NCBI GenBank assembly: GCA_020832365.1
Contig: JAFIEX010000004.1
Coordinates: 1-51,146 of the forward strand
Source of the DNA: Crocinitomicaceae bacterium
GTDB lineage: Bacteria > Bacteroidota > Bacteroidia > Flavobacteriales_D > Crocinitomicaceae
Direction: 5' to 3'
DNA: 51,146 nt
The notes beneath the pieces were generated by a model. The model saw only the letters and a program-made list of their open reading frames with translations, did no database searches and was not told the origin of the DNA. Below, one piece after another: positions 7,897 to 45,681 of this stretch. The position numbers and the translations under genes were made by a program. Numbering within the stretch: position 1 is the stretch's first letter; each line of letters begins with the position of its first letter.

Positions 7897-10800
7897 TTAC
7901 TGTTTCACAATCTTGAAAGTTCTTTGCCCTTCTTGATTATGTAATCTCAATGTATAAACACCAGGTGTTAAATGATCTATTGTAATCTCTGCTTGATTAT
8001 TATTCATTAAAGAATTATTGTCCACAAGAACTACTCTTCCATTAATGTCCAGCATTTCAATCGTCATAGACTCAAAGTTTGCATCATTAGCAATCACAAG
8101 GTGACTTGTTGCTGGGTTTGGATAAACAGAGATATTCCCCATTTTCTCCTCACCAATAGACAAGTAATCACAAGATTGTAAAACAATTACTTCTACAAAT
8201 TGCGTATCAGCTGGACAAACACCATTAGATACGATGTAGTCGAAGTTAAAACTACCTCCGATATTTGAAGCAATCGGTTGTGAGTTTGGCAACGGGTTAT
8301 CTTGTGGATCATACCAAGTTCCTCCCATATCCACATTACCATTCAAGCCAGCGAACAAGTTGATTGGTTCATTTCTACAAACTGTAATTGTTCCATTTTG
8401 CCCTGCTGATGAAGGAGGGAAAATGTTCAGTGTTGCTACAGTTGTATCATTGGCACACAGACCTTCAGTGATATAAAATACCTCATAAGTTCCTGAAGGA
8501 AGTGTTGCTACATTCATGATACTTCCGTTGATTAGTGTTTCATTCGATGGGAATGACCACTTACCATAGTTGTATGCAGGTGTGATGATTGTATTTAAAT
8601 CAACCGTCACATCCAAGCGACAAACATCCTCTTCACCATCTACTCCTGGTGTAGGCACACATGGAAGGATTTTTAACTCATCAACTGCGATGTTATCGTT
8701 AATACCTCTTCTAATGTTGTAGAACTCGATAATAATCGTATCATTTGCCCAATTAGATAAGTCTAAGACAGTATCTTTCCAAGCATCCGTCTTGTTAAAC
8801 TGTTGCATCCCAACAATAGTCAAAAGGGAATCCCAAGTAGCACCATTGTCATTAGAAATGAACAAGTTCAAACTATCAACAAACGAGCCAAACATGTGGT
8901 AGCTAAACTGGAATCTTGGGTCATTAATTGATGATAAATCAATCAAAGGCGTCCAAAGTCTAGCTTCTTGACCATTTGTTCCTGTATTCGACGAAGTAAA
9001 TACATACTTACCAGAACCAGAAGCATCCGTTGAAGGACCAGTAGCTGTGGAAGAAGTTGCTCCAACACGCGTACCCCACTGGAATGGATCTGTAGTTCTA
9101 TCCCAACAAGAGCTAATCTCAGAACCTACGTTATTAAAACCAGTACCAGAAATCCACACAGATGCATCGTCGAAATCTTCAAAAAACGGTGCAGAGAAAA
9201 CGTTACATGGTGTCATAAAGTTCTCCGGACCTCTCCAAGTACTTGTATCTCCGACAGCACAAATCCCTCTTACATAAATATCATACTCAGTGTCAACATC
9301 TAACCCTGTTAACGCGTAAGGGTTGTTTGTTGTCACAACAGAAGTACCCGTACCAGGCGTAAATCCAGCAGGACCATATTGTAATTCCCACTCTGTTTCA
9401 TTACCTCCAGCAGTCCAAGCAACATCTGCTGAACTCGGCAAAATATTACTTACCATTAAATCAGATGGACGCGGACAAGATGGCGCTGGCAGAATCTCCA
9501 AAGCGTAATCTAAAATCATATTTGATGAAGTCAAAGATTGACAAGGATCTGTATTCAATGTTGATGTAGCAGTTCCTAAAACTGTTCTTACTCTCAACCT
9601 GTAAACACCTGGAGTAACAGTAGAAGGCACTTGAATAACTCCATTAATTGGAACATTAATAGGAGATTGATCAACAAAAACTTGTTCAGAAGGGTCAAAA
9701 ACCAAGTCCTGATTCCAATCCACCCAAATTAAAGTAGTTTGAGATGAAGAAAATGCAGCAGTGATATTGAACGTTTCATTCTCCTCCACTTTAATCGTAT
9801 CCGAGGCACTCAAATTTAAATAACCAGGAGAACCTGGGTGCGCAGTGGCAGTATAAACTACGTTCTGGGTAGCATCGGAAGTTTCAAACAAAGTGATAAA
9901 ACTGAAAGTACCACTAGTAGAAGGAACACAGTAGCCTGTGAATATACTCAAAGGTCCTACCCAACTACTTGAATCTGCACCACAATCAGCTATCACATAA
10001 ATGTCATAATTCGTTTCAGGATCCAACCCTGTAATTGTATCTATTGTGGCCGTTGTTGAAGAAGCACCAATTTCAGTACCAGTTCCTGGTGTAAACCCAG
10101 GAGCTCCCCATTCCAATGCAAAAGACGAGGTTGTTACCAAGGTATCCCACTCCACTATTGCAGAGGTAAACTGTGTTGATACCAAATCAAAGTCTAATGG
10201 AGGAGGACAAGCGGGAGGATTTCCAACATTTAAAACTAAATCTATTGCTGAGCCCCAACTAAAAGTTGTACAAGGGTCTGGAGTAACACTAGACCAAATT
10301 GCCCTTACACGCATGATGTAATCACCTTGAGCGACACCAGCAGGTATGCTAGCAGTTCCATTTAATGCATTAAGAGGGAAAGAACTTGGTGCTGTACCAA
10401 CGAAAATTTGCTCGGAAGGATCAAATACCAAGTCATTATTCCAATCTACCCAAATTGCGATGGTATTTTGACCACCTTCAAAATTTGTGGTAAAATCAAA
10501 AGATCCACCAGCGAAATGACTCACTGTATCAGAGTGAACTAAATTATCTAGTCCATTCGTAGGAAAAGAAGAATTTACATATGTAACGTTTTGCTGAGCT
10601 GTTGTCGTCTGAAATAAACTTAAATAGTCAGAAGTATTAGTATAAATAGGTAAACAATGCCCTGTAAAAACATTAATAGGACCAACTGCGAGACTCAAAT
10701 CTCCAGGGCCACAAACCGCTCTAATGTAAAAGTCATATGATGTATGTGGAATTAAACCTGAGATATTTGTTGGATTGTTTGTGGTATTTTCTACGACACC

Positions 10801-11466
10801 ATTCCCTAAAGTAAAACCAGCTGGACCATACTCTATATCCCACTCTGTCTCTGTACCTCCTGCTGTCCAAGACAACTGAACCTCAGAACTAGACAGTAAA
10901 TTGGAAGAAAAATTAGTCACAAAAGGACAGGTAGATTCCTCAGCTGCAAGGAAATTATCCACGTAAAAAAAATAATCTCCTGAAAACCAAGTACCAGAAA
11001 GTCGCCAGCCGAATACTGAACCAGCGGGAACATCAGCCCCATCTATTGTAGATGTAAATGTAACACAACTAGTTGAAGGAACATGATTGGATTCATTAAT
11101 CGTATCATAATTAATGTAGGTGGCGCCTCCATCTACAGTATACTGAAGGATCATCTGACCAAAATTACCTGTTGTCGCAGGGTTCGGGAATGAAAAATCA
11201 ATGATTTTGTAATCAAAAGACACATCAATATCCGCACCATCTGCAATTGCGGTTGGTGAAGTTAGCTGCCCTGTGATTCCCGATGACCAAAAGTTCCTCC
11301 TTACAGACCGCGTATCACAGGGGTTTACATCTGTACTAAAAAAGCCTACCTCAGTCCAACCTGGAGGAATGGTTGTTGAGTTGAAGTCTTGCGAAATAAA
11401 CACTTGCGATTCAACATAATTGGAGAATAACAATGGAAGCATCAATAAAAGTAATAATCTTCTCAT
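7897..11466 (-). CDS. large secreted protein, FN3/GEVED/MAM-like domains with T9SS type A sorting domain
   Basis: 1,189-aa exported multi-domain protein. Starting at ATG 11466 it opens with a cleavable signal peptide (MRRLLLLLMLPLL...). Domain order by eye: a beta-rich MAM-like domain (about 25-175), FN3 (180-265), GEVED (WVDWNNDLVFDPSEQIF, 270-415), FN3 (418-510), GEVED (WVDWNQDLVFDPSEQVF, 515-655), FN3 (662-745), a second MAM-like domain (about 762-933), then Ig/PKD-like stretches. The last 78 residues form a type A T9SS sorting domain: ISVYPNPATSHLVI, then DINGRVV, then LTPGVYTLRL and a lysine-rich end. It is therefore expected to be exported by type IX secretion and attached to or released from the cell surface. 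No catalytic motif was seen; an adhesin or binding role is inference. A TTG start at 11487 was rejected. Confidence 0.92.
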   Translation of the reverse strand: MRRLLLLLMLPLLFSNYVESQVFISQDFNSTTIPPGWTEVGFFSTDVNPCDTRSVRRNFWSSGITGQLTSPTAIADGADIDVSFDYKIIDFSFPNPATTGNFGQMILQYTVDGGATYINYDTINESNHVPSTSCVTFTSTIDGADVPAGSVFGWRLSGTWFSGDYFFYVDNFLAAEESTCPFVTNFSSNLLSSSEVQLSWTAGGTETEWDIEYGPAGFTLGNGVVENTTNNPTNISGLIPHTSYDFYIRAVCGPGDLSLAVGPINVFTGHCLPIYTNTSDYLSLFQTTTAQQNVTYVNSSFPTNGLDNLVHSDTVSHFAGGSFDFTTNFEGGQNTIAIWVDWNNDLVFDPSEQIFVGTAPSSFPLNALNGTASIPAGVAQGDYIMRVRAIWSSVTPDPCTTFSWGSAIDLVLNVGNPPACPPPLDFDLVSTQFTSAIVEWDTLVTTSSFALEWGAPGFTPGTGTEIGASSTTATIDTITGLDPETNYDIYVIADCGADSSSWVGPLSIFTGYCVPSTSGTFSFITLFETSDATQNVVYTATAHPGSPGYLNLSASDTIKVEENETFNITAAFSSSQTTLIWVDWNQDLVFDPSEQVFVDQSPINVPINGVIQVPSTVTPGVYRLRVRTVLGTATSTLNTDPCQSLTSSNMILDYALEILPAPSCPRPSDLMVSNILPSSADVAWTAGGNETEWELQYGPAGFTPGTGTSVVTTNNPYALTGLDVDTEYDIYVRGICAVGDTSTWRGPENFMTPCNVFSAPFFEDFDDASVWISGTGFNNVGSEISSCWDRTTDPFQWGTRVGATSSTATGPSTDASGSGKYVFTSSNTGTNGQEARLWTPLIDLSSINDPRFQFSYHMFGSFVDSLNLFISNDNGATWDSLLTIVGMQQFNKTDAWKDTVLDLSNWANDTIIIEFYNIRRGINDNIAVDELKILPCVPTPGVDGEEDVCRLDVTVDLNTIITPAYNYGKWSFPSNETLINGSIMNVATLPSGTYEVFYITEGLCANDTTVATLNIFPPSSAGQNGTITVCRNEPINLFAGLNGNVDMGGTWYDPQDNPLPNSQPIASNIGGSFNFDYIVSNGVCPADTQFVEVIVLQSCDYLSIGEEKMGNISVYPNPATSHLVIANDANFESMTIEMLDINGRVVLVDNNSLMNNNQAEITIDHLTPGVYTLRLHNQEGQRTFKIVKQ

Positions 11467-11488
11467 AATCTTAATTTTAAAATTCAAT

Positions 11489-11496
11489 CAAAAATA
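11489..11496 (-). promoter_or_regulatory. -7 element upstream of the T9SS protein gene
   Basis: Minus-strand TATTTTTG, an exact TAnnTTTG match, lies 22 nt upstream of the ATG at 11466. No clear TTG is found 19-21 nt further up, so only the -7 half is supported. Confidence 0.45.
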
Positions 11497-11774
11497 GGGC
11501 AAATTGTGAAAATAAAAAAATATAGCTTCATTAATTCTAGGCTTATATTGAAAGGCTACAAGCGATATTTGATCAAAAAAATAGAAAATTCATGTTAATT
11601 ATTTAACAACTATAAAGCGCCCCCGTCTTGTTCATCTATTGTTTTTAAGTAAGGATAGCGTCAAAAATACAATTCATCGAAAACTACAATTTTACATATC
11701 GTTTCACTCAACTATTTTCCGTTGGCGGACTATCCAAAAAAAATATTTATATTATTATATTCATAAGCAATATT
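11497..11774. other. AT-rich intergenic region between divergent genes
   Basis: About 280 bp between the promoter of the T9SS protein (minus) and that of the SDR gene (plus). I see no ORF with a plausible start and no hairpin-plus-T-run. It probably holds only upstream promoter sequence for both genes. Confidence 0.5.
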
Positions 11775-39655: not shown

Positions 39656-39684
39656 AAAAAAGATTGCGTAAAGCAATCTTTTTT
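39656..39684. terminator. bidirectional terminator (original terminator of tRNA-Leu before insertion)
   Basis: AAAAAAGATTGC and its exact complement GCAATCTTTTTT flank the 5-nt loop GTAAA. It terminates the M23 gene rightwards. Leftward-facing it would have terminated tRNA-Leu before the 5.9-kb element came between them. Confidence 0.88.
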
Positions 39685-39702
39685 AATTAGTGCCCAGGAC
39701 TG
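39681..39702. repeat. left attachment-site copy (22-bp direct repeat)
   Basis: Perfect 22-bp direct repeat of 45589-45610, containing TGCCCAGGACTG from the acceptor/T-arm end of tRNA-Leu. Downstream bases (AACCATAATG) resemble the tRNA continuation with a gap. It marks the left edge of the integrated element. Confidence 0.92.
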
Positions 39703-39821
39703 AACCATAATGTAGCTAACTTAAACCTCATTAAATTAGTATCAAATACCACTAAAAACAAGCATTAAAGCCACTTTTGAGAGATTAACAAAATTTGCCT
39801 AAATCGGTTTAAATTAGAATA

Positions 39822-39852
39822 TGTGGGGAAAATGTGGGGAAAATGTGGGGAA
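39822..39852 (+). repeat. three TGTGGGGAA repeats, left end of element
   Basis: Copies begin at 39822, 39833 and 39844, exactly 11 bp apart, which puts them on one face of the helix. The same unit appears twice at the right end. They lie directly before the int -7 element, so recombinase binding here would also affect int expression. Likely arm-type recombinase sites. Confidence 0.75.
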
Positions 39853-39857
39853 AACAT

Positions 39858-39865
39858 TATATTTG
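39858..39865 (+). promoter_or_regulatory. -7 element of the integrase gene
   Basis: TATATTTG, exact TAnnTTTG match, 19 nt before the int ATG at 39885. The -33 position falls inside the TGTGGGGAA repeats and has no TTG. Confidence 0.5.
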
Positions 39866-39884
39866 TCATAACAAATTATCAATT

Positions 39885-41174
39885 ATGGCAACAGTTAAAT
39901 ATTTCATCAAAGGAAAGGGAGAAGCAACAACCATTTACACACGTTTAAGAGATGGCCGAGAAACCGATATAACAACGTCCACAGGTTACACAATTAACCC
40001 CGAGTTCTGGAGTGACAAGAAAGGAGAACCAAAACAAGTTGCTGGAAACAAAGACAAGTTAAATTTATCCAACGATTTAAGAACTTTAAAGAATTTCATC
40101 ATTAACAAGTTGAATGAAGACAAGGGAACAACCTCTATTGATAAAGATTGGTTAAACCATGTTGTTGCAGTCTATAAGAACCCATCTATTGACAGTAAAG
40201 AAATTTTATTGATGGATGCTATAAAAAACTATCAATCGGAATTGAAAACAAAGTTTAACCCGAAAACAGGAAAACTAATTTCAAACTATACTCTCAAAAA
40301 TTATAATACTACCTTAATGAGATTGGAGAAATTCGAGAAATTCAAGAAGTACCAATATTTTTTGCATGAAGTAGATTTAACGTTTCATTCCGATTATAAG
40401 AAGTTCGCCACAACAAAATTAGGTTTATCCATTAACAGTATAGGCAAGGACATAAAGCAAATTAAAACCGTTTGTCTGGATGCCAGAGACAGAGGTTACG
40501 ACATTAACAAGCAAGCAGAGAGCCGAAAATTTACGATGCAATCAGAACCAACCTTATTTGTGACATTAACAGAAAGCGAGATTAACACTATCAAAGGACA
40601 TGAGTTTAAACAAAACTACCTAAGTAATGCGAGAGATTGGTTAATAATTGGATGCTGGACAGGTTGTCGAGTTGGCGACCTCATGCAGTTGGACAACAAT
40701 AATATCATTCACAACAACAAAGGACAGAAGTTTATCCGATACACCCAGAGCAAAACAGGGAAACAAGTCGATTTACCAATACACCCACAAGTTAATGAGG
40801 TGCTGGAGAGGTTAGGGAGTTTTCCAAGACCAATATCATTTGTTAATTTCAATCTGTATATCAAAGAAGTTTGTAAACTTGCTGGATTAACGCAATTAGT
40901 CAAGGGAACACGACAGAACCCAAGCACCCATAAAAAAGAAACAGGAATGTTTGAGAAATGGGAGTTAATTAAGTCGCATACGTGCCGACGATCATTCGCC
41001 ACTAATCATTATAACAAGTTGTCGAATAAATTAATCATGCGAGTAACAGGACACGCCACCGAAAAGATGTTATTAAACTACATAGGAGAGACAGAAACCG
41101 ACCATTTGAACGACTTCATGAATGTTTGGGATAATGACAAGGAAAATGAAGTTAAATCAATCAAAACAGCTTAA
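39885..41174 (+). CDS. tyrosine recombinase / integrase
   Basis: 429-aa site-specific recombinase of the Bacteroidetes type: an N-terminal arm-binding domain (TVKYFIKGKGEATTIYTRLR, GYTINPEFWSDKK), a SAM-like core-binding domain (about 110-220) and a catalytic domain. Catalytic residues: R in GCWTGCRVGDLMQL, K in YTQSKTGKQVDLP, H-x-x-R in SHTCRRSFATNHY, GH in RVTGHATEKM and the nucleophile Y in LLNYIGETE. It should integrate and excise the element at tRNA-Leu. The ATG 39885 fits the family N-terminus; a longer frame would run back through the TGTGGGGAA repeats. Confidence 0.93.
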   Translation: MATVKYFIKGKGEATTIYTRLRDGRETDITTSTGYTINPEFWSDKKGEPKQVAGNKDKLNLSNDLRTLKNFIINKLNEDKGTTSIDKDWLNHVVAVYKNPSIDSKEILLMDAIKNYQSELKTKFNPKTGKLISNYTLKNYNTTLMRLEKFEKFKKYQYFLHEVDLTFHSDYKKFATTKLGLSINSIGKDIKQIKTVCLDARDRGYDINKQAESRKFTMQSEPTLFVTLTESEINTIKGHEFKQNYLSNARDWLIIGCWTGCRVGDLMQLDNNNIIHNNKGQKFIRYTQSKTGKQVDLPIHPQVNEVLERLGSFPRPISFVNFNLYIKEVCKLAGLTQLVKGTRQNPSTHKKETGMFEKWELIKSHTCRRSFATNHYNKLSNKLIMRVTGHATEKMLLNYIGETETDHLNDFMNVWDNDKENEVKSIKTA

Positions 41175-41299
41175 TGTTTAAATTTAAAATAACTATGTTA
41201 GGAACGTCGCAATCTTAAAACCGACAAGGGAATAAATTTTTATCCACAAAACACAAGCGAAATTGTTAAATTCTTTCTGAAATAAAATAGGCAAATTTC

Positions 41300-41319
41300 C
41301 AAAGTTAGATGTAACTTTG
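41300..41319. repeat. 8-bp inverted repeat in the element control region
   Basis: CAAAGTTA and TAACTTTG are perfect complements around GATG. No T-run follows, so an operator is more likely than a terminator. Confidence 0.5.
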
Positions 41320-41433
41320 AAACGCCAAATGAGGAAAACCGCAAACTACAGCAATAGAATGCGGTCTACTTGAAACAATGTGATTACCTCAATTTTTATC
41401 TTTGTTGATGCAAATATACACACTATTATTTAA

Positions 41434-41471
41434 TACACAAGTTTTTTTTATAAACTTTTTTAAATTGTGTA
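41434..41471. repeat. inverted repeat TACACAA...TTGTGTA
   Basis: Arms of 7 bp, extendable to about 10 with one bulge, around a T/A-rich centre, 74 bp upstream of the first HTH gene. Possible repressor site. Confidence 0.35.
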
Positions 41472-41544
41472 GCACAAACCACCGAGGTAAAATCATTTTT
41501 CAATAGGGCTTCTAAGGCATATTTATTAACTAAAATTTTTAAGT

Positions 41545-41712
41545 ATGTTATGTACTAAAGAAGTTGCATCTATTTTAGGATGCACAACAAGAAACGTTGC
41601 CAGATTGGTAACTATTGGAAAACTAAAGCCTATACACAGGCATAACAGATTTTTCCTTTTCGATGAGAAAGAAGTATTAACCTTTAAATCAATTCGAGAT
41701 GGAAAACAGTAA
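41545..41712 (+). CDS. 55-aa helix-turn-helix protein (AlpA/excisionase-like)
   Basis: Short gene not reaching usual length cut-offs. The protein begins MLCTKEVASILGCTTRNVAR and continues with a winged-type segment containing HRHNRFFLFDEKEVL, the pattern of MerR-like HTH_17 excisionase-type proteins (helix-turn-helix, then R-x-x-x-F strand). Its last 14 bases overlap the start of the next HTH gene, so both are translated together. A role in excision or in control of the operon is likely from family and place. Confidence 0.75.
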   Translation: MLCTKEVASILGCTTRNVARLVTIGKLKPIHRHNRFFLFDEKEVLTFKSIRDGKQ

Positions 41713-41998
41713 TTTAACCCACAACGATTTGCCAAAAGCAGTTGGTTTGTTATTGGAACGATTGGAGCGAATAGAAGCGAGTTTAACCGCTCAAAATTCA
41801 AAGGTAGAACAAACACCTCATCAGGAGAGTGAAACGTTCCTAACGAGAAAGGAAACCGCCCAATTTTTTAAGATTAGTTTATACACCGTCCACGATTGGA
41901 TGAACAAAGGTATAATCAAACCTTATAAGGCTGGAAACAGAACGTATTTCAAGCAATCGGAGTTAGTCGAAGTTCTAAATAATTCTAATAGTCAGTAA
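41699..41998 (+). CDS. 99-aa helix-turn-helix protein (excisionase-like)
   Basis: HTH_17-family DNA-binding domain in the C-terminal half: FLTRKETAQFFKISLYTVHD then MNKGIIKPYKAGNRTYFKQS. The N-terminal half is a helix (LLLERLERIEASL) that may dimerise. Such proteins act as excision factors or regulators in integrative elements. It overlaps the previous HTH gene by 14 bp and is followed with a 1-bp gap by the 54-aa gene. Confidence 0.85.
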   Translation: MENSNLTHNDLPKAVGLLLERLERIEASLTAQNSKVEQTPHQESETFLTRKETAQFFKISLYTVHDWMNKGIIKPYKAGNRTYFKQSELVEVLNNSNSQ

Positions 41999-41999
41999 C

Positions 42000-42164
42000 A
42001 TGGTATTAAGAAAAAAGGGAGCGCAACAACGCACCCCCCAAACAAATTATCAATGTTCTGGCAAAAGACCACCGATAACGCAAAAATACAAAATATTTGC
42101 CTTATATCAATGGCTAAGAGGTTGGAGCATTGCAGTATTTAATCTACTAAAAACGATATTGTAA
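42000..42164 (+). CDS. 54-aa small basic protein of the element (previously uncalled)
   Basis: An ATG-started frame of 54 codons fills the gap between the HTH gene and the helicase gene precisely: it begins 1 bp after the HTH stop, and its stop TAA overlaps the helicase ATG as TAATG. This double coupling is the main evidence for a real gene. The protein has a very basic N-terminus (MVLRKKGAQQRTPQ) and a hydrophobic or amphipathic C-terminus (ALYQWLRGWSIAVFNLLKT), so it might bind DNA or membrane. No family recognised. Confidence 0.6.
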   Translation: MVLRKKGAQQRTPQTNYQCSGKRPPITQKYKIFALYQWLRGWSIAVFNLLKTIL

Positions 42165-43744
42165 TGAGTGAACAAAATATATTTTTAGGACAATCCCCCC
42201 AGAAAATAGACAAATCAAAGTTAAGGATTAAGAAGCCTATTTATTTAAAAGATAGTGCCTTTGCTTATGATTTATGGGAGTGGAAATATAACAACAATTC
42301 AAAGAAGTTTGAAATTAGTTCTTTGTATTACCAAGGAATGAGGGAATTTATTAATTCGTTGGATTATTATAAAAGACAGTTGTCAGATAAAGACCATATT
42401 TATATTAAAGAGGTTGACAATGTAATACAAGAAATTACAAAAGATGATCTTAATGATGAGGTACGTAATTATGTAGATAGCATTAGACAACCTATCAAAT
42501 TTACATACAATGATACAGAATATTCGATACCGTGCGAAACGTTCAAGAATATCTATCTAAAACAGCATCATAATATAACAAATGATAAGTGGTTAACCAA
42601 TATTCAGAAGCATGAGAAACCCATATTAAAAGATACTGAAACAAGTTCTTTCTTTGTGTTTAATAATGGACTTATTGAAGTCACAAAAGACAATATCGAG
42701 ATGAAAAACTTAGATGAGTTGAAAGGTGTTTGTGTATGGAAAGACCAAGTAATAAACCATTATTTTACATACATTGAAGACCGCACAGGAATAGAGGGAG
42801 AATATGAAAAATTCATTCATAACGTATGTAATAAAGAGCCTCAAAGAGTTCTGGCATTATGTAGTGCAATAGGCTATTTGTTACATAATCATTTTGACCG
42901 TACAAAAGGACAAGCAGTCATATTTTATGATGAAGCCTTAACAGACAGTAATAACCCCCAGGGGGGAACAGGAAAAGGCGCAACCGTTCAAGGAATAAAG
43001 CAAATGAGAAAAACCGCAAAAATTGATGGTAAAAACTATAAATCAGACGACAAATTCAAATGGAGCAATGTAAACCCAGACACACAATTAGTTTGGATTG
43101 ATGAAACTAATAAGAATTTTGATTTTAAAGATATGTTTTCAAACTTAACAGATGGCTGGCAAGTGGAACGTAAATTTCAAAATAAATTCGACATTGCACC
43201 AGAAGACAGTCCAAAGGTTTTAATTTGTTCAAATTCCATATTAGAAAATAAAGGAACAAGTAATAAGCGACGACAGTATGTAATTGAATTTTCTGACTTC
43301 TATTCAAGTAAGATTATCACAGGTACTGAAGAGCCAATAAAAGATGAACACGGAACTTTGTTTTCAGATAAATGGAGCATTGAAGAATGGAATAAATTTT
43401 ATTCCTTCATGCTGGAATGTTCGCAACTTTATTTGTCACAAGGTCTATGTGATTATGAGCGTAAAAATGTAGGCTTTAATTTACTCAAACAACAAACTTG
43501 CGACGAGTTCATGGAGTACATTATAAGCACACCACCACCAACAAACATTGATTTTATCATGAAAGATTTATTTGATGAATTTAAGTCATGTTATTTAGGT
43601 GAGGACAGTAAAACTACTCAAAGAACATTCACTAATTGGATAAAAAAATATTGTGCGACTGAAAGCCTTGAATTTATCAGAGTAGGGAAGTCAAACGGAA
43701 ACCCAATTTATCAAATTAGGGAACAAGGGAACAAGCTACAATAA
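42164..43744 (+). CDS. SF3-type replicative helicase (phage/plasmid primase-helicase family)
   Basis: 526-aa protein. The C-terminal half is a P-loop ATPase: Walker A NPQGGTGKGATVQGIKQM (about residues 264-281), Walker B TQLVWIDETNKNFD (about 305-318) and a sensor motif SPKVLICSNSIL, with NKRRQYVIEFSDFYS after it; this is the order of D5/P4-like and DUF5906-type helicases of phages and plasmids. The N-terminal half (1-230) shows no catalytic primase motif that I can identify. It should unwind the element's DNA during replication; with the polymerase gene just downstream the two would make a replication pair. Its start is coupled to the 54-aa gene. Confidence 0.85.
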   Translation: MSEQNIFLGQSPQKIDKSKLRIKKPIYLKDSAFAYDLWEWKYNNNSKKFEISSLYYQGMREFINSLDYYKRQLSDKDHIYIKEVDNVIQEITKDDLNDEVRNYVDSIRQPIKFTYNDTEYSIPCETFKNIYLKQHHNITNDKWLTNIQKHEKPILKDTETSSFFVFNNGLIEVTKDNIEMKNLDELKGVCVWKDQVINHYFTYIEDRTGIEGEYEKFIHNVCNKEPQRVLALCSAIGYLLHNHFDRTKGQAVIFYDEALTDSNNPQGGTGKGATVQGIKQMRKTAKIDGKNYKSDDKFKWSNVNPDTQLVWIDETNKNFDFKDMFSNLTDGWQVERKFQNKFDIAPEDSPKVLICSNSILENKGTSNKRRQYVIEFSDFYSSKIITGTEEPIKDEHGTLFSDKWSIEEWNKFYSFMLECSQLYLSQGLCDYERKNVGFNLLKQQTCDEFMEYIISTPPPTNIDFIMKDLFDEFKSCYLGEDSKTTQRTFTNWIKKYCATESLEFIRVGKSNGNPIYQIREQGNKLQ

Positions 43745-43749
43745 AAAAA

Positions 43750-43781
43750 GGGGGGGGTAATTATTTTTACATATACCCCCC
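43750..43781 (+). repeat. G8 ... C6 inverted run after the helicase gene
   Basis: Eight Gs and six Cs, 18 nt apart, can pair into a short GC-only stem between the helicase stop and the polymerase start. No T-run follows, so it is not a classical terminator; it may reduce polymerase expression or stabilise the upstream RNA. Confidence 0.45.
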
Positions 43782-43831
43782 ATATTTAGATAGATGTTGT
43801 TCCCTTAATCCCTGAAATAATAACTACAAAA

Positions 43832-45058
43832 ATGCAAAGTTCTGAATATCAACTAAATAAGTTTGTAGAATATATTCGCACTAAACAATTTATGTTAAAC
43901 GCACTAAAAGGAGTTGATCCAAATACATTTGTTTTTATCAGTATGAACGAGATTAAAAGTCGATTTTTAGTCAATCCGCATGAAGACATTAAGAACCTCG
44001 TACAAGCTGGAGAAATTGAAGTTCAAGAAAATCACAATTCTAAAAGACATAAATACACGTCCTACAAAGTTTTGAAAGCTGGCTACTATGATCTAAACTT
44101 ATTAGAGCCTAAAGGCAAGGAGTTAACCACCACCACCGAAAGAATGATGAATATTTTAAAAGATGTATCATTAAAAAAAGATAGTCCATCTACACAGTAT
44201 TTTAATTCGTTTCTGGAGTACAAAAACAACCTATTAAGGACATTTTTTAATGTGGATGTATTTAGCGGACGAGTACATACACCAATAACAAGCTTTAAAG
44301 GGGAGTACAGGAAAAATATTTTAATTGATGAGTTGGAGACAATATCTATTGATGTAGTGACGATGCAACCGCTTTTATTAGGGAGTATATTAAAATCAAA
44401 GATTGGAGAAAATGAGTATTCAAATTGGATTGATACAGGCGAAGACATTTATTTGATGCTACAATCAAAAGCGAAATTATCCACCAGAGACGAAGCCAAA
44501 AAACGATTTTTTGAAATACTGTTTTCACGCCCAAATGATAGCCTTAAAAAGATGTTTGGCAATAGTACATGGATTGAATGGATTAATGAGTTTAAACGAC
44601 AACCATTCACGCCCAACCCCCATACATTAGAAAAAAATCATTCCAATTTAGCATGGTTACTACAAACAAGTGAGGTTACCATAATGACAGAGGTCTGGAG
44701 TTGCTTGTTAGATGCTGGAGTTAAATTTTTATCGGTGCATGATGAGGTTATTGTCAAACATACAGATTATAAGAAAGCAAAGGATATTTTTAGTTCTGTA
44801 TTATCAAAACACCTAACATTTTTCAAATTATCCGATAAACAAATAACAATCGAAAAACAATCGAATAACAGTCATAAAACAGTCATAGCACCACCACAAG
44901 ATAAGGTAAAAAAGGACACTATAAAAAAGACACCCCTACCAAAGAAAGGAGAACTATATTCAATCAATGAACTGAAAACTAAATTCCAACTATCGGATGA
45001 GTTTATTAAGCAAAATTTTGATGAGTTTTATCACAATATAGGATGGATTAATATTTAA
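43832..45058 (+). CDS. minimal family-A DNA polymerase-like protein
   Basis: 408-aa protein carrying the three signature motifs of family A polymerases in order. Motif A: SIDVVTMQPLLLGSIL with catalytic D at 174. Motif B (O helix): STRDEAKKRFFEILFSRP, where R219, K223 and F227 have the spacing of R754, K758 and F762 of E. coli Pol I; the usual Y-G is F-S. Motif C: LSVHDEVIVKH with D304-E305. No 3'-5' or 5'-3' exonuclease domain is present. The steric-gate glutamate after motif A is Q179. The first 120 residues are probably a winged-helix or linker. It resembles the short polymerases of mobile elements and viruses related to PolA (TV-Pol type). The assignment is from motifs by eye. Confidence 0.78.
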   Translation: MQSSEYQLNKFVEYIRTKQFMLNALKGVDPNTFVFISMNEIKSRFLVNPHEDIKNLVQAGEIEVQENHNSKRHKYTSYKVLKAGYYDLNLLEPKGKELTTTTERMMNILKDVSLKKDSPSTQYFNSFLEYKNNLLRTFFNVDVFSGRVHTPITSFKGEYRKNILIDELETISIDVVTMQPLLLGSILKSKIGENEYSNWIDTGEDIYLMLQSKAKLSTRDEAKKRFFEILFSRPNDSLKKMFGNSTWIEWINEFKRQPFTPNPHTLEKNHSNLAWLLQTSEVTIMTEVWSCLLDAGVKFLSVHDEVIVKHTDYKKAKDIFSSVLSKHLTFFKLSDKQITIEKQSNNSHKTVIAPPQDKVKKDTIKKTPLPKKGELYSINELKTKFQLSDEFIKQNFDEFYHNIGWINI

Positions 45059-45062
45059 GATC

Positions 45063-45419
45063 ATGAGTAAAAATTTACCGAAAAATACGGATGAGAACGG
45101 ACGAGACGACAAAGGACGTTTTACAGATGGCAACAAAGGGAAACCCAAGGGAGCAACCAATAAGACGACGAAAGATATTCGCGAATTTATAACCAACTTT
45201 CTGAATGATAAAGCCTATGAAATACCGCATATCTGGAACTCATTAGACGACAAGGACAAAGCAACGTTATTTTTGCATCTTTGTAAATTGGTGCTACCTA
45301 AAACAACAACCGAGCAACAAACACCTAAAGAGCTTCAAATATTCCATGGTATTGATTTAAGCGTAAAAGAGGAAACACCAACCCCAGTTTGGAAAGTCAT
45401 AGACGGTTCAAAAAAATAG
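45063..45419 (+). CDS. 118-aa protein with DUF5681 / terminase small subunit-like N-terminus
   Basis: The N-terminus reads GRDDKGRFTDGNKGKPKGAT, very close to the GRFxxGxxGNPKGRP signature of DUF5681 proteins found with phage small terminases and in mobile elements. A helical segment follows (TKDIREFITNFLNDKAYEIP), then a disordered proline/threonine tail. It follows the polymerase gene by 4 bp. A packaging or DNA-binding role is possible but not shown by the sequence. Confidence 0.65.
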   Translation: MSKNLPKNTDENGRDDKGRFTDGNKGKPKGATNKTTKDIREFITNFLNDKAYEIPHIWNSLDDKDKATLFLHLCKLVLPKTTTEQQTPKELQIFHGIDLSVKEETPTPVWKVIDGSKK

Positions 45420-45447
45420 AGATGATGCGTATAGCGAATATATTCCT

Positions 45448-45510
45448 ATCTGTTACGCACGTATAAGAGTGTTTAGAAATCATAATATGCTACAATCTGT
45501 TACGCACGTA
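45448..45510 (+). repeat. pair of 16-bp direct repeats at the right end of the element
   Basis: ATCTGTTACGCACGTA occurs at 45448-45463 and 45495-45510, 47 bp apart (start to start). The core TTACG-CA-CGTA is an inverted repeat, so each copy could bind a dimer. Possible excisionase or replication-initiator sites. Confidence 0.6.
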
Positions 45511-45530
45511 AAAAGACCTTTTTTCTGAAT

Positions 45531-45550
45531 TGTGGGGAATATGTGGGGAA
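45531..45550 (+). repeat. two TGTGGGGAA repeats, right end of element
   Basis: Copies begin at 45531 and 45542, again exactly 11 bp apart and in the same orientation as the three left-end copies. Matches expectation for recombinase arm sites at both ends. Confidence 0.75.
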
Positions 45551-45552
45551 AC

Positions 45553-45587
45553 AAAAAACCCAACTAACTGTAAAACAATCAATTGGG
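45553..45587 (-). terminator. terminator supplied to tRNA-Leu by the element
   Basis: On the minus strand a 12-pair stem (CCCAATTGATTG with CAGTTAGTTGGG, several G-U pairs) and loop TTTTA are followed by six T residues. It lies 12 nt past the tRNA 3' end and replaces the original terminator now at 39656-39684. Confidence 0.8.
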
Positions 45588-45588
45588 C

Positions 45589-45610
45589 TTTTAATTAGTG
45601 CCCAGGACTG
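45589..45610. repeat. right attachment-site copy (22-bp direct repeat)
   Basis: Same 22 bp as 39681-39702; here it includes the 3' end of the intact tRNA-Leu gene (acceptor strand and discriminator base). Confidence 0.92.
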
Positions 45611-45681
45611 GACTCGAACCAGCATGCACTTAGTGCACCACCCCCTCAAGATGGCGTGTCTACCAATTTCACCACCTGGGC
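45599..45681 (-). tRNA. tRNA-Leu (anticodon GAG)
   Basis: 83-nt tRNA with acceptor pair GCCCAGG/CCTGGGC, discriminator A, D-arm GGTGGTGAAATTGGTAGACA, anticodon stem CCATC/GGTGG around the loop TTGAGGG (anticodon GAG), a long class II variable arm (GGTGCACTAAGTGCATGC region) and T-loop TTCGAGT. CCA is not encoded. It is the insertion site of the element. Confidence 0.95.

Follow-up and report, generated by a model that had tools for sequence, protein, structure and literature searches.

The 51,146-bp window, the whole stretch of DNA that was analysed, comes from a bacterium of the Crocinitomicaceae (Flavobacteriales) and contains an integrated element of about 5.9 kb (39703–45588) with seven genes (Table 1). 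It was flanked by two direct repeats that were identical at 22 of 22 nt, or at 24 of 25 nt when extended. When the 3' region of the neighbouring tRNA was compared with the 10.5 kb to its left, the longest exact match was 22 nt, against a maximum of 12 and a mean of 9.6 in 200 shuffles. Since ARAGORN placed tRNA-Leu(GAG) on the minus strand (45681..45598), the right repeat copy corresponds to the tRNA 3' end. Both the perfect repeat and its overlap with the tRNA thus agreed with the preliminary description, and every gene listed there (integrase, two HTH proteins, small ORF, helicase, polymerase and DUF5681-like gene) was found. The GC content was 33% in the element and 38% and 35% in its flanks.

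Table 1. Features of the integrated element and its target site, in window coordinates.
Feature	Position	Strand	Basis
attR, left 22-bp repeat copy (core), past the M23-gene terminator	39681..39702		repeat comparison, shuffles
Putative integrase arm-type sites, left arm (n = 3), TGTGGGGAA, 11-bp spacing	39822..39852	+	
Tyrosine integrase, 429 aa; catalytic R, K, HxxR, H and Y present	39885..41174	+	
Non-coding gap, 370 bp	41175..41544		
HTH_17 protein 1, 55 aa, excisionase/AlpA-like	41545..41712	+	above Pfam cut-off
HTH_17 protein 2, 99 aa, excisionase/AlpA-like; kept in most of the integrase clade	41699..41998	+	above Pfam cut-off
54-aa ORF, weak relative in L029	42000..42164	+	
D5/SF3-type replicative helicase, 526 aa	42164..43744	+	Walker motifs; homologues carry DUF5906
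TV-Pol, family-A polymerase (best fit), 408 aa, N-terminal winged-helix-like part	43832..45058	+	alignment, profile, fold search
Arg147, invariant hairpin arginine	44270..44272	+	15-sequence alignment
Motif A, D174....Q179, Gln at the Pol I steric-gate Glu position	44351..44368	+	register inferred by alignment
Motif B, R219xxxK223, fingers helix	44486..44500	+	alignment, PDB profile
Motif C, H303-D304	44738..44743	+	alignment, PDB profile
Probable small terminase (TerS), 118 aa, the earlier DUF5681-like gene	45063..45419	+	homology, TerL adjacency
TGTTACGCACGT repeats (n = 2), perfect, 47 bp apart, just past terS	45451..45509	+	none elsewhere in window; 0 expected
Putative integrase arm-type sites, right arm (n = 2), TGTGGGGAA	45531..45550	+	
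attL, right repeat copy, overlaps the tRNA 3' end	45589..45610		repeat comparison, ARAGORN
tRNA-Leu(GAG), integration target, still intact	45598..45681	-	ARAGORN

Deletion of the element in silico restored the order M23 gene, terminator stem (39660–39680), tRNA-Leu and uvrC, as had been described, although by construction only; a real empty site was not found. Among 29 uvrC loci in other genomes, none had tRNA-Leu(GAG) beside uvrC, and the joined flanks used as a query matched the window alone in a searched set in which the genus was represented by one genome. Genome G396 was rejected as an empty site: although its tRNA-Leu(GAG) has an M23 homologue nearby, the tRNA is located upstream of that gene. 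The same genome holds a second tRNA-Leu 3'-end fragment, GTGCCCAGAGAGGG, 100 bp past tRNA-Leu(GAG) (L188:3391-3505), as if left over from a past insertion. Homologous elements were found elsewhere, two of them at tRNA genes with matching boundaries: the target of L028 is again tRNA-Leu(GAG), with a repeat of 17 bp, and that of L029 is tRNA-Cys. Inside its left end, L028 has a further att-core copy of 13 bp (L028:5526-5538), which may stem from tandem integration.

The TGTGGGGAA repeats at both inner ends of the element, each array with a spacing of 11 bp, are as expected for integrase arm sites, and a TGTGGGGAA array likewise adjoins the integrase in L028, L170, L172 and L180, all from other genomes. 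The TGTTACGCACGT repeats are possible origin, packaging or excisionase sites; five similar copies were present in the circular relative L180, which has another replication module and the same HTH genes. The integrase contained Phage_integrase and SAM domains above the Pfam cut-off and a sub-threshold match to Arm-DNA-bind. No Rfam family matched in the 370-bp gap. Relaxase and conjugation genes were absent from the seven genes, and membership of the ICEs or IMEs was therefore rejected. The window element carried no defence cargo except for an HTH likeness to mad1.

Relatives of the integrase were collected by a search in the same family, after which their loci were annotated. They formed one clade (54–65% identity to the window integrase, support 100/100), and the same HTH_17 gene was present in most of the loci. 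The replication genes of these loci differed: TV-Pol and helicase (window, L024), a 786-aa helicase protein (L028, L029), AEP-DUF3987 (L173, L174), CHC2-Toprim-AAA_25 (L172), AAA_25 with DUF6371 (L180; DUF6371 also in L177) and rolling-circle Rep_1 (L175, L179). Because a single integrase clade carries so many replication modules, the job of this slot is replication. L023 encoded a TV-Pol and helicase like those of the window beside an unrelated integrase (22% identity), so this module also switches chassis. The element borders of L024 and L023 were looked for and not found. The neighbours of both loci are genes of restriction-modification systems, either a type I methylase with its specificity subunit and a WYL protein or a type III methylase (L024:4116-7839 in G610, L023:17137-18720 in G415), and are probably anti-phage cargo.

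The helicase contained a Walker A motif (GGTGKG) and a Walker B motif. It had no Pfam match to DUF3987 or DUF5906, but its homologues did, with DUF5906 in those from viruses and Chitinophagaceae. Of 10 tested homologues on viral contigs, most were fused to BT4734-like_N, Prim-Pol (AEP) or CHC2-Toprim, and three had no named N-terminal domain. A Toprim-like DUF6371/Zn-ribbon protein is encoded separately, 3' of the helicase, in L025, L026 and L224. Brumimicrobium glaciale (genome G397) has the form in which the helicase is paired with TOPRIM. The same place as helicase partner is filled by the TV-Pol in the window, L023 and L024. As the relatives of the helicase are paired with AEP, DnaG or TOPRIM primases, the TV-Pol sits in the place of a primase.

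Single-sequence queries with the polymerase against genome and viral contigs, plasmids, Pfam, PHROG and PDB gave no convincing match, and its relatives were reached only through whole-genome searches and alignments. Helicase-led searches of whole genomes yielded orthologues in G415 (38% identity) and G610 (45%), both of the same family, and a profile search yielded the wider polymerase family. The window polymerase had no Pfam match to DNA_pol_A; one orthologue matched below the threshold (5.7e-5). Across 15 aligned sequences, R147, D174, K223, H303 and D304 did not vary and Q179 and R219 hardly did, with one homologue having Lys in place of R219. In a profile comparison with the PDB, the top matches were family-A polymerases, headed by pol theta, with T7 and Pol I further down the ranking; they were weak (E = 0.02 and above) and in register at motifs B and C. 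The AlphaFold model (pLDDT 80) had family-A polymerases as all 36 of its 36 best PDB fold matches (T7 DNA polymerase, apicoplast polymerase, pol theta, Taq and relatives), while its fold matches among viral models were phage polymerases and the replication protein of the virophage Zamilon. The catalytic motifs and the fold thus bear out a PolA-like enzyme.

TV-Pols are characterized by a hairpin with an Arg, two catalytic Asp, an RxxxK motif and a thumb of two antiparallel helices, and adjoin or are fused to a D5-like helicase in mobile elements, including those of Bacteroidetes (PMC2579912). The window polymerase has the hairpin Arg (R147), two palm Asp (D174, D304), the RxxxK of the fingers (R219/K223) and a neighbouring D5-like helicase, and it lacks a nuclease domain. 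In the model, helices 100–111 and 122–138 precede the hairpin and are candidates for the two-helix thumb of TV-Pols. By its motifs and predicted fold, the 408-aa protein is a family-A polymerase and fits the TV-Pol family. The pair with the helicase then corresponds to the association of TV-Pol and D5 that Iyer et al. described in 2008 (PMC2579912), so that "new replicating type", which the element had been suggested to be, is too strong.

Other proteins resembled TV-Pols in part. Two phages of 642 and 735 kb (LR756502, L020; LR756501, L033) encode stand-alone TV-Pol-like proteins of approximately 400 aa. The 900-aa proteins of L184 (5561-8260) and L142-L145 contain TV-Pol-like DIKSAF, RSQAK and RLHD motifs and are similar in their C-terminal part to the domain with which the 786-aa proteins begin. 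We do not claim the 786-aa proteins (L027, L028, L029) as TV-Pol–helicase fusions: the motif-A profile match was in register but weak (P = 0.026 and 0.009), and the structural model (pLDDT 55) had no fold match.

TV-Pols were predicted to be primases in 2008, by the same displacement argument as that made above (PMC2579912). In SCCmec, an A-family polymerase was shown to prime together with the protein MP, whereas CCPol by itself requires a primer and needs this second protein; up to that 2020 study, no other TV-Pol had been characterised (PMC7581432). By analogy, the TV-Pol of the window element probably makes primers. No OB-fold partner like MP was found beside it, and the 87-bp gap between polymerase and helicase holds no gene. 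The steric gate of CCPol is a Glu (PMC7581432); the Gln found here in its place may bear on nucleotide choice. That CCPol alone requires a primer would also accord with a polymerase that serves only as an accessory, repair-type enzyme while the helicase uses the host primase. This is compatible with the satellite reading given below, but it appears unlikely, as TV-Pol replaces primases beside the same helicase family.

The last gene had relatives in L028, L029, L221, L222 and L227, one of which had a sub-threshold match to DUF5681 (1.1e-4), and the gene itself is present as first described. Its viral relatives, of approximately 100 aa, were mostly located directly 5' of a gene encoding 385–500 aa, and 10 of 10 tested downstream genes were large terminases by Pfam (one, in L249, under the cut-off). 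Because the viral relatives directly precede TerL, the DUF5681-like gene is read as a probable TerS. As the viral sequences were retrieved with a pattern for the shared GxPKGxxNK motif, the E-values against viral ORFs (down to 5.5e-11; reversed query, 0 matches) are inflated, while the adjacency to TerL is independent of the pattern. The earlier statement that the element has no transfer genes overlooks this packaging gene. No TerS gene was found in the closest TV-Pol relatives, L024 and L023; L029 encodes two TerS-like ORFs within one element (10754-11092 and 11338-11634). The window element has a probable TerS without TerL or structural genes. Such a combination is a packaging-piracy hallmark of PICIs, which carry TerS-like genes as the window element does. 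Neither Terminase_3 nor Terminase_6N was found in the host genome, although the controls matched, so any helper would be an infecting phage.

The absence of a resident TerL would also suit a self-replicating, plasmid-like integrative element. Such an element would move between cells by transformation or as a passenger of conjugative elements, and its TerS-like gene would encode a DNA-binding protein that had been acquired or repurposed. Several members of the integrase clade lack TerS, and some carry Rep_1 rolling-circle modules. The contig of L180 (G569:C26, 1-6179) has 6,179 bp, and as its two ends are identical over 127 bp, it represents a closed circle of 6,052 bp. Besides HTH genes, AAA_25 and DUF6371, it encodes an integrase related to that of the window (65% identity), and it has no TerS match. 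Its att region contains arm sites and TGTTAC[GA]CACGT repeats as at the ends of the window element, and no second copy of its att core was found elsewhere in its genome. By analogy, this circle supports a circular form of the window element. For PolA-SSB elements, second-strand synthesis after single-strand uptake has been put forward, which would also suit a self-replicating element. A terS-like gene near the element end across three module types (window; L028 and L029; L221, L222 and L227) argues against this explanation, which we consider rather doubtful.

The co-occurrence of a phage-type integrase, replication genes and TerS, together with homologous helicases in phages, could also indicate the degraded remnant of a temperate phage that retained these genes. 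However, all genes are intact and compact, the att ends are precise, structural relics are absent and a similar arrangement occurs in independent insertions at other tRNAs, which makes such a remnant highly improbable.

The att ends, gene content and fold confirm the integrative element in tRNA-Leu with its own helicase and family-A polymerase described earlier. We consider it a complete 5.9-kb element that most likely, though by no means surely, lives as a phage satellite. With its integrase, own polymerase and helicase and phage-type packaging gene, it would probably excise, copy itself and travel in phage particles. The best reading of the sequence is a PICI/PICMI-like satellite whose replication module is a TV-Pol with a D5-type helicase. 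The integrase and an HTH_17 excisionase would act on the tRNA-Leu core and release the element as a circle; the helicase would open an origin, and the TV-Pol would make primers, and perhaps elongate them, in place of an AEP, DnaG or TOPRIM primase. The element's TerS may then mark the amplified DNA, an infecting helper phage would supply the large terminase and the capsid for packaging it, and the element would re-integrate at tRNA-Leu of a new cell.

More tentatively, these loci might represent a Bacteroidota lineage of tRNA-integrating phage satellites in which TV-Pol, AEP, TOPRIM and rolling-circle Rep are swapped freely on one integrase–excisionase chassis, the TV-Pol priming without an SSB partner and its Gln steric gate maybe admitting ribonucleotides. 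Taken singly, TV-Pol elements, A-family primases and phage satellites all have precedents. What looks new, within the non-subscription papers searched, is that a TV-Pol element carries a TerS-like gene and that modules are exchanged on a single integrase chassis in Bacteroidota. A small, intact element with a helicase and cognate ends makes the question of TV-Pol priming testable in a second lineage, and points toward PICI/PICMI-like satellites in Bacteroidota. The interchangeable modules on one integrase lineage are natural evidence that TV-Pol, AEP, TOPRIM and rolling-circle initiators are functionally equivalent.

With the TV-Pol elements (PMC2579912), the window element shares a minimal family-A polymerase with hairpin Arg, two Asp and RxxxK, a D5-like helicase and, in some of them, a lambda-type integrase; the present analysis adds precise ends at tRNA-Leu, the arm sites, two HTH_17 proteins and a TerS-like gene. 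The accessible part of the text of Iyer, Abhiman and Aravind 2008 (PMC2579912) mentions no terminase, whereas a TerS-like gene is present here. In SCCmec with CCPol-MP-Cch2 and in the PolA-SSB elements (PMC7581432, PMC10061031), the replication module of the integrated element likewise pairs an A-family polymerase with a D5-type helicase. In contrast to these, the window element has no OB-fold partner between polymerase and helicase, a reversed gene order, Gln rather than Glu at the steric gate, and a tyrosine instead of a large serine recombinase. Pipolins (PMC7385651), drawn as a parallel in the preliminary description, are also integrative elements with their own DNA polymerase, which is thought to prime. 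The functional likeness holds, but their enzyme is an unrelated family B polymerase, and membership was rejected on account of the family A fold found here. The search model for PICMIs consists of an integrase, AlpA (PF12728, HTH_17) and a DUF3987/DUF5906 primase (PMC10803314). The window element differs from PICMIs in its integration at tRNA-Leu(GAG) and not next to fis, and from PICMIs and PICIs in having a TV-Pol rather than an AEP-type primase, no known helper and a Bacteroidota host; with both it shares a small size, few genes, an integrase with att sites, an HTH_17/AlpA regulator and probably a module of the primase–helicase type (PMC10803314).
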